Source: Chytridium lagenaria (taxonomy: Eukaryota; Chytridiomycota; Chytridiomycetes; Chytridiales; Chytridiaceae). From it: 64,000 nucleotides of DNA. The translations under genes were made by a program, and so were the position numbers. A model generated the notes under the pieces. The model was given only the letters and a program-made list of their open reading frames with translations. It did no database searches and had not been told where the DNA came from. Location of the stretch: NCBI GenBank assembly GCA_025449115.1, contig JAHLKC010000078.1:124001-188000 (forward strand). Direction: 5' to 3'. Of the stretch, positions 57,664 to 64,000 are shown in pieces; within the stretch, counting starts at the first letter, position 1, and each line of letters begins with the position of its first letter.

Positions 57664-58598
57664 TGTGAAGAATTACATTATTCACATGGCCTATGGCTCA
57701 TAAGGACATTTCGTCTAAGTCCGTTGAGTTCCGTTATATCCCCGTCGACGCGTGTATTTACGCGTCATATTGAATCCTCCTTCTTTTCCCTTTGGGTTTT
57801 TTATATATAGTTTTTCCCCACGTTTATAGGGTTTTTATCGAAGGAGGTGGCGCGCATATGTGCCGTTTATGTGTGTGTGCATATGTTGTGTCTATTATTT
57901 ATTTGTATTTTGTGTATTACTTTAATATGAGAGATTTCTTGATTTAATTTGTACCTGTTGAATTAAGTAGTTGATATTGAGTTGATCCCCCATCCTCTAT
58001 CACCACGCGCGTGGCCTCGCGGCGTGATCTCCCCTTCACTCTTAGTTGGATGACAGTCGACCCCTCTGCCCCCTTACCACCTGGTGAAGCTGCAATCCGG
58101 CCGTTTGAGACGGAAGGCTGTGATGGAATCCCTCCTCATTCACAGTGTCCTTTAGTCAAGGCTTGGTCAGCTACATTCCACCTCTGGTGCTCTCCGACCC
58201 GATGATCAGGCGCTAACGGCAGGCAATGAGTGAGGTTACCCTGTTCTAAGCTCTGAGAGGCAAACGAGAGCCCATGTTCCAAAAGGTGCCATAGTAGGGT
58301 GGCATGGAGACTTATAGCCATCCCCGATTGCCAGGAGACAATCTGGTGCTCATATTGGTTTATTAGCAAGGTAAGTCAACATAGAAGATACTAAACACGT
58401 TCCCTTCTCCCTTTATTAAGCAGAATCTCGCGATCACTCACCCACACCATCGCCAAACAACAACATCACTTAGATTCAGGAGTACATCCTGTCCCTAGAT
58501 GCTCTGTGGACTTGCTCTGCTGGAGCAACTCCTTTACTCTTCTCCCCTACCCCCTAGTCGAAGCTAGGTAGGGAGGGATGGGTCAAGAGAAGATCACA
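57664..58598 (+). repeat. inverted LTR copy (left arm of palindrome)
   Basis: About 935 bases beginning TGTGA and ending TCACA, the inverted terminal pentamer expected of an LTR. It is the reverse complement of 58631-59571 with roughly 95 percent or better identity by eye. Neither a polypurine tract on its left nor a primer-binding site on its right is seen, so it looks like a solo LTR in opposite orientation. Confidence 0.85.
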
Positions 58599-58630: not shown

Positions 58631-59571
58631 TGTGATCTTCTCTTGACCCATCCCTCCCTACCTAGCTTCGACTAGGGGTAGGGGAGAAGAGTAAAGGAGT
58701 TGCTCCAGCAGAGCAAGTCCACAGAGCACCTAGGGACAGGATGTACTCCTGAATCTAAGTGATGTTGTTGTTGTTTGGCGATGGTGTGGGTGAGTGATCG
58801 CGAGGTTCTGCTTATGTAAAGGGAGAAGGGAACGTGTTTAGTATCTTCATTATCGACTTACCTTGCTGCTAAACCAATATCAGCACCAGATCGTCTCCTG
58901 GCGATCGGGGATGGCTATAAGTCTCCATGCCACCCTACTATGGCACCTTTTGGAACATGGGCTCTCGTTTGCCTCTCAGAGCTTAGAACAGGGTAACCTC
59001 ACTCATTGCCTGCCGTTAGCGCCTGATCATCGGGTCGGAGAGCACCAGAGGTGGAATGTAGCTGACCAAGCCTCGACTAAAGGACACTGTGAATGAGGAG
59101 GGATTCCATCACAGCCTTCGGTCTCAGACGGTCGGATTGCAGCTTCACCAGGTGGTAAGGGGGCAGAGGGGTCGACTGTCATCCAACTAAGAGTGAAGGG
59201 GAGATCACGCCGCGAGGCCACGCGCATGGTGATAGAGGATAGGGGATCAACTCAATATCAACTACTTAATTCAACAAGGTACAAATTAAATCAAGAAATC
59301 TCTCATATTAAAGTAATACACAAAATACAAATAAATAATAGACACAACATATGCACAGACACATAAACGGCACATATGCGCGCCACCTCCTTCAATAAAA
59401 ACCCTATAAACGTGGGGAAAAACTATATATAAAAAACCCAAAGGGAAAAGAAGGGAGGATTCAATATGACGCGTAAATATACGCGTCGACGCGGGATATA
59501 ACGGAACTCAACGGACTTAGACGGAATGTCCTTATGAGCCATAGGCCATGTGAATAATGTAATTCTTCACA
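58631..59571 (-). repeat. 3' LTR of the Ty3/gypsy element
   Basis: On the minus strand it begins TGTGAAGAATTACATT at 59571, directly after a purine-rich tract, and ends GATCACA at 58631. TGTGA/TCACA ends, about 941 bases. The 5' LTR is outside the window. Confidence 0.85.
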
Positions 59572-59614: not shown

Positions 59615-62600
59615 TTAGTTATCAGAAGTATAAGAACTATCTGTATATATATCAGAGCTTGCATTATCGGCAAGTCTATAAGGCCAAGTATTGGCAAGGG
59701 TTATATAATTGTTACCATCTAGCATTTCGATAGCTAAAGGTACTTCAAAGTTAGTATCAGGATAATCATCATCAAGAGGATTATCCATATCAGGTTCCAA
59801 CTGAGGAACTTCATTGTCATAGCATTCTGGTCATCAGAATCTATATGCGCAGCCTGCCGTAAAGAACGTTTAGCTTGCGCTTACGTTTCTTTATGGGGCT
59901 AGGAGGGTATCATCAAGGATACCTTCATCTTCATCCTCACTACGATAACCATCATTATCTTCAGGCATCGTGTAGGATATGGGCTTAGGCGCAAGTCTCT
60001 TGCGGCCAGCATTCTTTTCATACACTACTCTAGAGCATATGCTGTGGGCTGTGTTTTAGCAACACGGTCCCAGTAATCTTTAACTATGGATGGGGGTAAG
60101 GCCTCTTCATCCATTAGAAGGTTATGCGCGGTTCCATGACCGAGCCATTTAACATAATACTTATACTTGTTGTTATGAGAATCATAAGTATGATAATCCA
60201 GTTTCTCAACATAGAACTCAGGATCATTATAGTCGGCATCAGCGACTTCTTCATCAAATCGTCGAAACAATTCGCGATTAACTCCAACTGCTACCTTATT
60301 CTTAGGCATGCGTCTAATAACTTGGAGTTCTTTCCATGCTGCAATCTCAGCAGCAAAGTCATCTGAAGCTACTTCTGCAGATGCAGCATTAGCAGTTTCT
60401 GTAGGCGGCAAAGACTCAAATGGTCGGAGTCTAGCAGCATTAGCAAGTCGTGATAAGAGCTGGCCTCCAGGGAGGAGCTCTACAACTGTGTATCTATTGC
60501 TGTCCATAGATTTACTAAGGACACGCATAGGGCCAGCCCATCTAAATTGGAACTTCTTAGTGGGGGCATTCTTGTTCTCTTTCCCTCGACGTTCAGTCTT
60601 CAAGGGAACAGAGAGCCATACCAGGTCGCCAACATCAAACGAGTGTTTGTTGCGACTGGGTTTATTTTGTTGTGCTCGTCTCTTGCGTTTGAGTTCTGCA
60701 CGCAAGAGTACAGCTTTGAATAGGCTAGTCTAGCAGCTAGCTGGGTAACATAATCTTTAGCCTCCAAACGATCATCTTCATCGTTGAGGGATTCTTTGAC
60801 AAAGTCCTGAAGGGCTTGTCGAGTATTCATGAGCACACTCACATGTGTGTCAGTGTCTATATCATCTTCAGGAGAAATATAATTGTCAGGAGGAACATAA
60901 TCGTCCTGGTCGTTGTTGACTTCAAGGTCAATTATCTTTACGTGCATAGCAGGCCCTTCAGCAATAAGGGGTCTGCTGTTGTCTAGTATTGAAGTAGATG
61001 GCGATAAAACCAACAAGTCATGATAGTATAGGTTCATGCCAGTATCAACAAAAAGCGGATAACTATCACGCAAGTGTGGTTTCTCCGTCGCACATCCTCT
61101 ATGGATAACAGTGGTATAGACATCTCTGTCTTTGCCCTCATGTTATGCGAACCCGTCGGGTAATGGCATGCATAGGGAGCGTTTGTTTTCTTTGGAAGGA
61201 TCTCCATTGAAATGTATAACTTAATCTTTTCATGGGATGAAAGTGAATAAGATAGAATACGTCATACTCATATTTCTGAAGAACATCAGCAATGAGTAGA
61301 TAAGGTTCGCGACCGTCTGTTCTTGACAGATCGTGAGCAGCTCGCGCAAGGCGGTTGTCAAGAAGATGTGGTTGGTTAGAAACCATAGCAAGTATTCTGG
61401 GAGGAGCCTCGGCAGTATCTCTAGTAGTGGAGACGGCAATCAGAGGTTCATCTCCAGTTTGAGCCCATAATCTGGGGTCTGGGTATTCTTCCGCAAACGT
61501 CGTCTGTGGGATATCCAAACTTAAGGTCAGCCGGCGTAAACGCTTCACGGCCAAACATCATCATGAATGGGGTTTCATTTGTGGTCTGGTGGACCGTTGT
61601 TCTGTATGCAAACAACACATAGGGGAGTATTTCATCCCAATCGTCATGTGTTCTTTGGTTTAATATACGCACGTATCATCTGGCATAGAGTTTTTGTTTG
61701 TTCGTTCAACTAAACCGTTGGCCTGAGGCCAATACGGCATAGAGAAGGATTGTTTCATTCCTAGTACAGTAGAAACTCTCTTAAAGAGGTCACTAGGAAA
61801 TGGTTGTCCTTGATCTGAGTGTAAGGTCAAGGGAATGCCGAAGCGGCAAAAGCATTGCTCAACAACTATTCTAGCAATGGTGTTTGCTTCTAAGTCGGGG
61901 ACGGCAAAAGCATCAGCCCAACGGGTAAGTAGTCCGTGAGGACAACAATATACTTGTTGCCACGTTGGCTAGTGTTCATAGGACCAACAATATCGATGGC
62001 CACACGATCCCAAGGTCTATGACCAAAGGGTATGGGCCTCACGGCACCTTTTCTTGTTAAGTTATCTTTAGATTGTTGACATGTAGGGCATCGTCGTATA
62101 TATGCCTCTAAATCTTTTTGGATAGTAGGCCACCAGAACCTATCTAGGGTAGTGGCAATAAGTCTGCGGACACCAAGGTGTCCTCCAGCCATCATATCAT
62201 CATGGACGGCGTCAAACGCAACGTCCTGAAGTCTTTTGGGGACACATAAAGCGACTCGCACTGGCGATCGTCGCATGAGGTAGTCCTTCACATAGAGTAC
62301 ACGGTAGAGAACTCTACCACGCATCACCATATTCTGGGCATTCATTAAAACACCCTTTCTTAGATCAGGATCCTCAGGAAGGATTCCTTTCTCTAGGAAC
62401 TTGATGACGTCTGCAAATCTCAAGTCATTTCTTTGGGCTTTAATAAAGTCACCAGATATCTGTCCGTTAGCCATGAAGGCATTGGGAATAGTATCTGCAT
62501 TCCTATCATTGACAGAAGGCCCGGGGTTGTTTGAGGCTTCATGCGGTGGCTCTTGATCAGGTAAGTCAAGTGCTGGCAATGAGATCATGTTATCATAATC

Positions 62601-64000
62601 ATTGTGGTGAGCATCGCTGTGCTCTAAGACCAATTCAACCATTTCATGGTCAGTCAGTGAAGCCACGAAATGGTGGTTAACATTCCATTTACAAGGAATT
62701 CGTTTATCTACAAAGGCGTAGTCTATTCTCCAAACAGCTTTATAGAACTCTGTTGGGTCATGCCAAGTATATCCTGGCGTATGCGGATGGCTATGACGAA
62801 ATCCATCCTTTAAAACCTAAGTTAATGAATGAGCTAAGCCAGTAGCGTTCATCGTTGCGGAATCCAGAGTATCCATAGAATCTGGATGGTTCTCGAACAT
62901 CAATTGCTTTGTGAGCAATATTGAAATCGCCTACAACAATTGTATTTGACTGAGCTTTGAGACTCTTTACAAAAGTATGTAGTCGTTCCAGGAACTTCAT
63001 CTTGTATTCCTGTCTGTGATCATGCCTCGTGCCATTTGGCGCATAGACATTCACTATATTCATACCTAAAAGGCAGAGTGTAAGGCATCGTCCCTCTTCA
63101 ACAAAGTCGTCGAAGTCAGTGCGCATCATATGAGTCCCACATATTACTGAAAGTACAGGGATATCTTCGCGGACCATGGTCATAACACCATTGTGTCCAT
63201 TTCTTTGTTCGTCAGCATACATCTTCCATCCGCGGACAGACTTCAGTTGTTGCCAAAACTTTTCATGACCATCGCCGACCATAGTCCTCTTGGAAGCAGG
63301 CGATGTCACATTTCATTTCATCCAAATATTTAGCAAAGAATTCTGCTCTATTGGATTCATCACCTTCAATTCTCTTTGCGAAGTGTTTCTTAACAAGAGC
63401 TTGAAGGCTGTTCACATTCCAACTTATAATCTTCAACTTGGAAGAGCGGAATGGTGTTTGTATATTATCAATGGGATATATCTTTTTCATTGACTCTGGT
63501 GGGAAGTCATGGATCATACGAGAAGGAACGTCAGGCAGGGCCGTCGTTCTCTCAACGCCATATATCTCGCGTAGAGATGGGGGTGATTCTTCAGTAGTTC
63601 TCTTTCATTGAGGGGTGAGAAGAGCTCACGTATCTCAAGTATTTCGTAAGCGTAAAAACCACTTAGAGATTTTGGACCAGTGTCAGGCACTGGGTAGTTT
63701 ACAGCATCTGGTGGTATACCGGCATTAACTGTTATGACGTGGGTGGATCTGTCCAGGTATGTGCCTAGGTGCACGAGAAGAGTTACTCTCAGGATCAGGC
63801 ACCTGGCAAATCCAGAATCGGGTAGTTCCTATGAACTCCCGTTTTTGATATTCAAATAGTCTGCGTCTCTCGAGAATGTCCTTCAATCGAGATGACTTTA
63901 TCCTGACAAAGACATTGTCAATGAGCTGTTCAGGGAAGATAACTTCACTGGAAAGCAATGGTCGATCAGATCCAAACTCCCGTTTTTGAGAAGGAGAAAG
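59615..64000 (-). CDS. pol: pol polyprotein, partial (5' end outside window)
   Basis: The protein runs from the window edge to about 59615 through several frames that differ by one base, almost always in short homopolymers (for example near 63290, 62816, 61915, 61693, 61672 and 60715). The changes look like the same sequencing error class as in the host genes, though real decay cannot be excluded. The continuous frame 61890-62690 contains both the last EEP catalytic motif (LTDHEMVEL) and the integrase zinc finger, so the two domains truly share one protein. The tail after the chromodomain is acidic (EDNDGYRSEDEDEGILDD; NPLDDDYPDTNFEV). The segment before the endonuclease (63440-64000) is unrecognised. 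Confidence 0.75.
60025..60705 (-). other. GPY/F module and chromodomain at integrase C-terminus
   Basis: Basic helix RAELKRKRRAQQNK, then FDVGDLVWLSVPLK and FQFRWAGPMRVLSK (GPY/F-like), then the chromodomain: EFYVEKLDYHTYD, KYKYYVKWLGHG and PPSIVKDYWDRVA. In chromoviruses this domain directs integration to particular chromatin. In-frame stop at 60025; the acidic tail continues in another frame. Confidence 0.85.
61440..62260 (-). other. integrase zinc finger and DDE core within pol
   Basis: HHCC zinc finger (VHDDMMAGGHLGVRR ... RRCPTCQQSK), then the catalytic core: first Asp in VAIDIVGPM, second Asp in LTLHSDQGQPF, Glu in PQANGLVERTNK, and the YVLFAYRTTVHQTTNETPF block typical of Ty3/gypsy integrases. 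Frame breaks near 61915, 61693 and 61672. Confidence 0.9.
62630..63440 (-). other. ExoIII/AP-endonuclease-type EEP domain within pol
   Basis: About 265 residues with all hallmarks of the endonuclease/exonuclease/phosphatase fold in order: KLKIISWNVNSLQ (Asn), CDIACFQE (metal-binding Glu), GHNGVMTMVRED, CLLGMNIVNVYAPNG, TIVVGDFNIAHKAIDV (GDxN), FRHSHPHTPGYTWHDP, WRIDYAFVDK and LTDHEMVEL (catalytic D-H). FRH, YTWxDP and WRIDY are typical of the XthA/ExoIII repair type rather than of LINE endonucleases. Two one-base breaks, after CFQE and in a short A-run near 62816. Confidence 0.85.

Follow-up and report, generated by a model that had tools for sequence, protein, structure and literature searches.

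An ExoIII/APE1-like nuclease between RNase H and integrase in Ty3/gypsy elements of the chytrid Chytridium lagenaria

Introduction

Long terminal repeat (LTR) retrotransposons are thought to depend on their host for DNA repair and, to our knowledge, the reverse transcriptases (RTs) of retroelements are held to lack proofreading. Some of these elements captured further enzymes that act on nucleic acids. Ty3/gypsy elements of plants (Tat) and oomycetes (Chronos, Archon) acquired a second, archaeal-type RNase H (PMC5348765). The LTR elements Juno and Vesta of bdelloid rotifers encode in a third open reading frame (ORF3) a DEDDy 3′-5′ exonuclease, gained independently at least twice and suggested to act on RNA 3′ ends (PMC5408684). 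Orchid Ty3/gypsy elements carry an ORF for an AlkB-type m6A RNA demethylase reported to be active (PMC9289625). Here we describe Ty3/gypsy elements of Chytridium lagenaria whose pol polyprotein contains an EEP nuclease domain between RNase H and integrase. A decayed copy lies in a 64,000-nucleotide stretch, hereafter the window, which spans positions 124001–188000 of contig C78 (JAHLKC010000078.1) in a genome assembly of 41.9 Mb and 356 contigs.

The elements resemble chromodomain-type Ty3/gypsy elements (Metaviridae) in their RT-RNase H-integrase order, LTRs, 4-bp target duplication and a putative chromodomain-like end, and differ from them by the predicted ASCH and ExoIII-type domains that precede the integrase, by an extra insert in the latter and by a length of about 14–16 kb at C95, C50 and C76. 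Capture of a nucleic-acid enzyme is shared with the dual-RNase H elements (PMC5348765), the enzyme being here an ExoIII-type nuclease accompanied by ASCH instead. Juno and Vesta are likewise LTR elements that gained a 3′ nuclease, but theirs is of the DEDDy type and encoded in the separate ORF3, while the one described here lies inside the polyprotein; a similar distinction holds for the orchid elements, whose captured nucleic-acid-modifying enzyme is a demethylase in an additional ORF and not a nuclease inside pol. Long interspersed nuclear elements (LINEs) with an APE-type endonuclease also carry a domain of the EEP superfamily. It is N-terminal to their RT (EEP 16–242 and RT 558–782 in the LINE at C40 of the same genome) and far in sequence, whereas here the EEP follows RNase H and precedes an integrase in elements bounded by LTRs, an arrangement that does not fit a LINE, with its EEP before the RT and neither LTR nor integrase. 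Cellular ExoIII/APE1 enzymes are alike in sequence, predicted fold and catalytic residues but stand alone, and are not fused in a polyprotein. Judged from its sequence, an ExoIII-type enzyme inside pol, together with ASCH, appears to be a new version of the captured-enzyme theme; no EEP between RNase H and integrase is named among the matches listed in searches of the open-licence literature.

Domain Order across the Genome

The order of domains was defined by Pfam scans of uninterrupted ORFs. Those at C198 (2,573 amino acids) and C95 (1,604 amino acids) contain RT, RNase H, EEP, H2C2 and rve in this order, and thereby the RT-RNase H-integrase order of Ty3/gypsy pol, RNase H and EEP being joined by a linker. 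Parts of the same order are found in further uninterrupted ORFs: RT-RNase H-EEP at C324 and C50, EEP-H2C2-rve at C76, and the end of the EEP with H2C2-rve at C238. The EEP occurs together with RTs of two widely different lineages, lineage A (including C198 and C95) and lineage B (including C11; see below). The original prediction, made from the letters of the window, had proposed a Ty3/gypsy polyprotein with an EEP placed between RNase H and integrase, and these ORFs bear it out.

A genome search with the 308-amino-acid frame of the window that joins the end of the EEP to the integrase (EEP-IN) gave 144 matches, which range from almost identical pieces to matches confined to the integrase, at 24% identity. 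When the 105 EEP and 84 H2C2 matches of the genome were paired, these counts being lower bounds, an EEP was located upstream on the same strand, at a gap of 307–897 nt, for 44 of the 84 H2C2 matches. Truncated copies that still reach the EEP end (e.g., C10 and C16:282956) are among the 40 H2C2 matches left without EEP. The joint is retained between loci of only 34–57% identity. The 40 also include elements devoid of EEP, such as the gypsy element at C222, where residue 891 is the last of RNase H and residue 1005 the first of H2C2.

The joint could in principle be an artefact, produced by a chimeric assembly or by insertion of a LINE or cellular fragment into a gypsy element, and the window copy, split over several frames at the end of a contig, would invite that explanation. 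We hold it to be practically out of the question, and for the family it is refuted: the joint lies in uninterrupted ORFs, recurs at 44 of 84 integrase matches and in two lineages, and its ASCH-EEP part is present in a second species, Phlyctochytrium bullatum. The search for other copies proposed with the original prediction thus argues against both a single insertion and a chimeric assembly. The EEP-carrying pol is a family trait of Ty3/gypsy elements in this genome, not a local accident.

Other parts of the polyprotein were less sharply delimited. A Chromo match in the C198 ORF has an E-value of 4e-4 (20.7 bits, for a cut-off of 25.1). Candidate traces of Gag and protease upstream of RT are an Asp_protease_2 match at C76 (E 3e-4), also below cut-off, and CCHC-like motifs at C95, C50 and C11, the spacing at C95 and C50 being one residue below the classic one. 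Lineage A integrases have an extra insert of, very roughly, 250–340 residues between the catalytic core and a GPY/F-like module (residues about 1990–2330 in the C198 ORF), for which no Pfam family above cut-off was identified in the window and element ORFs scanned.

The Nuclease Resembles Repair Enzymes

The closest relatives of the EEP by sequence are repair enzymes. ExoIII and AP endonucleases account for 53 of the 55 distinct sequences retrieved from the PDB (best match 5cfe, E 1.3e-28), the other two being Crc, and the predicted fold resembles those of APE1 and Mth0212, with values of about 1e-19. The EEPs of eight near-complete elements score 119.7–159.9 bits with an ExoIII profile and 10.1–29.2 bits with a LINE-type profile; five shorter EEP pieces likewise score higher with the former. 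The ExoIII profile was built after exclusion of two of 34 ExoIII rows. The LINE-type profile comprises ten nucleases of the same genome, with LINE identity checked for one (C40); they come from 14 fetched EEP loci without integrase, four of which were excluded because they had stops or were other EEP kinds. The profile comparison is not fully independent for lineage A, since the C95 EEP had served as query for the ExoIII rows, while it is independent for lineage B. Relative to cellular ExoIII/APE1, the element domain carries extra insertions. The residues N68, E96, Y171, N174, D210, N212, D283, D308 and H309 (APE1 numbering) are all kept wherever the near-complete rows of lineage A cover them; the C6 row, whose ORF begins after the motif, has K at the N68 position.

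Phylogeny was less discriminating. In a tree of 56 EEP rows, the ten LINE-type rows form one group (support 100/99) and the deep order is not separated. In a tree of 54 rows, from which three short rows were excluded, lineage A and the LINE rows lie on one side of a branch with support 84/92 that was not starred. No grouping was rejected on these 54 rows by the approximately unbiased (AU) test, with p-AU values of 0.162 for A+B, 0.308 for A, 0.363 for lineage B with LINE and 0.0955 for A+B with LINE. Because of the A+LINE branch and the unrejected B+LINE grouping, the tree by itself is no proof of the repair type. It is on similarity (PDB relatives and profile scores), and not by the tree, that the element EEP is assigned to the ExoIII/APE1 repair type rather than to the LINE type; the repair-type (XthA) assignment of the original prediction stands on the same footing. 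A LINE origin of the EEP was rejected on these grounds.

A protein search with the EEP gave 36 matches, two of which are partial proteins of Phlyctochytrium bullatum (Chytridiomycota). Only one of them (P0124) reaches into the ASCH part, with 36% identity over 316 columns, and both end before any integrase, so that they document the ASCH-EEP joint only. The nearest stand-alone relatives found are ExoIII-like proteins of 27–35% identity, bacterial in both cases with a named organism. No stand-alone gene was recognised among 87 genome matches to one ExoIII-like relative, not each of which was examined and among which intron-containing genes may escape. Capture of a host gene, as first suggested, is not shown by these matches. 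A search with the C95 EEP-IN, limited to proteins of 0.55–1.75 times its 1,604 amino acids, found PF03372 in none of the best 120 of 280 proteins; these cover 31–55% of the query and are listed with the domains of a gypsy pol. A distant relative of the EEP (24% identity) is encoded at positions 1736–2461 of the viral contig IMGVR_UViG_3300018868_000395.

The Predicted ASCH Linker and the Second Lineage

The linker between RNase H and EEP of lineage A is predicted to adopt an ASCH fold, as modelled for the C95 domain, whose closest match is ZmASCH. A Pfam scan of three linkers gave no match, nor did a search of the genome for PF04266; we therefore term it a predicted ASCH-fold domain and not a filed ASCH member. 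Two consecutive ASCH-like stretches are found in the C198 ORF (residues 1015–1111 and 1172–1298) and likewise at C324, one in each of C95, C50 and C76.

Lineage B is represented at C11 by a 653-amino-acid ORF with RNase H (to residue 105), EEP (160–410) and H2C2 (514–569). Only 55 residues separate RNase H from EEP, with no ASCH domain. Residues 110–600 of this ORF retrieved no protein at E ≤ 1e-4 among 7,996 candidates scored, selected by the same length limit as above. The EEPs at C11 and C137:85432–86304 are 100% identical over 291 residues, which points to a recent copy or duplication. A great distance separates the lineage B RT from its lineage A counterpart (branch of 3.75 changes per column). 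In an RT tree of 99 rows, a single clade of A and B (36 rows) was not rejected (p-AU 0.181), with long branches in both; neither EEP nor RT data reject A+B as one clade when a single capture of the EEP is compared with two. The original prediction had the placement of the EEP right and described neither the ASCH domain nor this second lineage.

In an alternative role, the EEP would be a second RNase H or an RNA-end nuclease that removes the tRNA primer, the purine-tract primer or the genomic RNA, while ASCH would bind RNA or itself be a ribonuclease. The position of the EEP after RNase H, said to be also that of the second RNase H in other gypsy elements, agrees with it, as does the likeness of the ASCH model to ZmASCH, reportedly a ribonuclease. 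A precedent is the second RNase H captured in Tat, Chronos and Archon (PMC5348765). We find this role unlikely: the EEP of lineage B does without ASCH, 55 residues past RNase H, and the elements already have an RNase H domain with a good score.

LTRs and Insertion Sites

LTRs of ~950 bp are paired in C95 (87227–88184 and 100645–101601; 98.2% alike over 962 columns) and C76 (63710–64652 and 78853–79791; 98.5% over 392 and 99.5% over 653 columns), and the elements at C95, C50 and C76 are about 14–16 kb long. The C95 LTR has 41 matches in the genome. A 4-bp target duplication, scored when the four bases flanking both LTR ends agree, was found at 10 of 21 sites, including the full elements C50 and C76. 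The site count is rough: C82a and C82b probably form the LTR pair of a single element and are not solo LTRs, and at the C39 pair the four matching bases are a run of A. These duplications indicate that the integrase still carries out insertion. C95-family LTR pairs with short interiors are located at C206:44849–48310, C33:211995–214796 and C39:231350–237263; they are possibly non-autonomous derivatives.

Selection on the Nuclease

Synonymous change (dS) could be computed for seven of 13 pairwise EEP comparisons, which are mutually non-independent, with omega values of 0.041, 0.118, 0.10, 0.017, 0.015, 0.094 and 0.56. Between C198 and C324, non-synonymous change (dN) amounts to 0.199 in the EEP, close to the 0.155 of RNase H and above the 0.062 of RT. 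By these codon comparisons the element EEP is under purifying selection. A non-catalytic role, as passenger or structural spacer, would be compatible with the many genomic copies that are broken, but would hardly account for the low omega, for the catalytic residues kept in near-complete lineage A copies or for a joint kept at 34–57% identity; we judge it very improbable.

The Copy in the Window

The minus strand of the window carries the 3′ part of the element, decayed and truncated by the end of the contig, which is reached 419 bases beyond the window (Table 1). The motifs of the EEP follow each other in order but are spread over three open frames. The original prediction had placed EEP and HHCC-DDE integrase in one uninterrupted frame. 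This is correct for the C-terminal part of the EEP with H2C2 (62816–61890), while the N-terminal and middle parts of the EEP are in two other frames and the DDE core in yet another, a splitting which defines the copy as decayed. The body of the element is collinear with C76 (91.5% over 5,105 columns). This collinearity and the uninterrupted ORFs elsewhere put the ordered EEP motifs beside an integrase far above chance. The ASCH remnant is also collinear with the C76 ORF, whose linker can be aligned with the C95 domain modelled as ASCH. At a distance of 32 bp from the element's own LTR lies another LTR of this family, which is oriented the opposite way.

Table 1. Features of the element copy and of the adjacent LTR in the window (window coordinates).
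Feature	Coordinates	Strand	Remarks
ASCH-domain remnant (predicted)	63500..63930, approximate	−	Two frames, within ORFs 64000-63725 and 63828-63514
EEP N-terminal part (SWNVN, CFQE)	63263..63604	−	Open frame; weak PF03372 match, E 0.07; collinear with intact C76 copy
EEP middle part (NVYAPNG, GDFNIA)	62791..63312	−	PF03372, E 1.7e-6
EEP C-terminal part (YTWHDP, WRIDY, DHEM) and integrase H2C2	61890..62816	−	Single 308-amino-acid frame; joint also at other loci
H2C2 zinc finger	62243-62064	−	PF17921, E 6e-18
Integrase DDE core fragment, frame-shifted	61660..61968	−	PF00665 (rve), E 2.3e-7; 31.5 bits, cut-off 32.6
Extra insert between integrase core and GPY/F-like module	60600..61557	−	Two frames; aligned with C198 and C76 ORFs
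Integrase C-terminal GPY/F-like module and chromodomain-like end	60025..60729	−	Chromo E 0.016, SH3_Tf2-1 E 0.021, both below cut-off
3′ LTR of the window copy	58631..59571	−	88.7% to C76 LTR, 954 columns
Second LTR of the family, opposite orientation	57664..58598	+	88.0% to C76 LTR, 953 columns

Discussion

We give an even chance to the reading in which the ExoIII/APE1-type nuclease encoded within pol acts on the 3′ ends of the element cDNA before integration, by repair, trimming or proofreading. Made within Gag-Pol, the EEP would be packaged with RT and integrase and would take off 3′ ends that are abasic, otherwise blocked or mismatched, leaving 3′-OH ends for extension by RT and joining by integrase. 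The substrate, RNA or DNA, would be held by ASCH, whose fold is PUA-like. Action before integration is the simplest reading of an ExoIII-type domain in elements whose 4-bp duplications indicate insertion by integrase.

Several observations weigh against it. The EEP tree places lineage A beside the LINE rows and does not reject lineage B there (see above), and the lineage B EEP has Ala at the position of APE1 Asn174. ExoIII-family enzymes are versatile, which makes cDNA as substrate a choice and not a result. C222, with LTRs 99.8% identical, is an element of the same genome that works without EEP. The omega of 0.56 is that of the C95-C50 pair (3 changes in total), dS is saturated in six of the 13 comparisons, and the ASCH linkers evolve faster than the EEP (dN of 0.29–0.41 compared to 0.20 between C198 and C324). 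Eleven of the 21 sites have no 4-bp duplication by the rule used, the LTR end not being found at three of them. Finally, a flank duplication of ~217 bp (87011–87226 and 101607–101823; 97.7%) lies outside both LTRs of C95, flush with their ends, and would fit nicking by the EEP.

Nicking of target DNA in the manner of LINEs, as a second entry route beside the integrase, was among the functions initially considered, and the C95 site is what could be expected from it: the duplicated stretch is matched elsewhere in the genome at three places only, and weakly (75% over about 146 bp), and the 5′ LTR lacks its first ~9 nt. Among the 21 sites a long flank match was otherwise seen only at C206, whose flank is apparently a tandem repeat of about 250 bp, and long target duplications were rejected as the general pattern. 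Ordinary 4-bp duplications, those of C50 and C76 included, make target nicking less likely, as does the similarity of the EEP to ExoIII; we regard this route as quite improbable.

If the nuclease does act on cDNA before integration, these might be the first retroelements with a built-in module for cDNA repair or proofreading, in which an ASCH reader and an ExoIII nuclease within pol would restore usable 3′ ends in the course of reverse transcription. It would be a fidelity device gained by two distant Ty3/gypsy lineages of early-diverging fungi, a proposal that we make tentatively and with more doubt than confidence. The stretch between RNase H and integrase is suggested as a landing place for captured domains. 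A repair-type nuclease in the pol of an LTR element would break the split that assigns DDE integrases to LTR elements and APE nucleases to LINEs. It makes testable whether a retroelement buys fidelity or damage tolerance through a captured enzyme.

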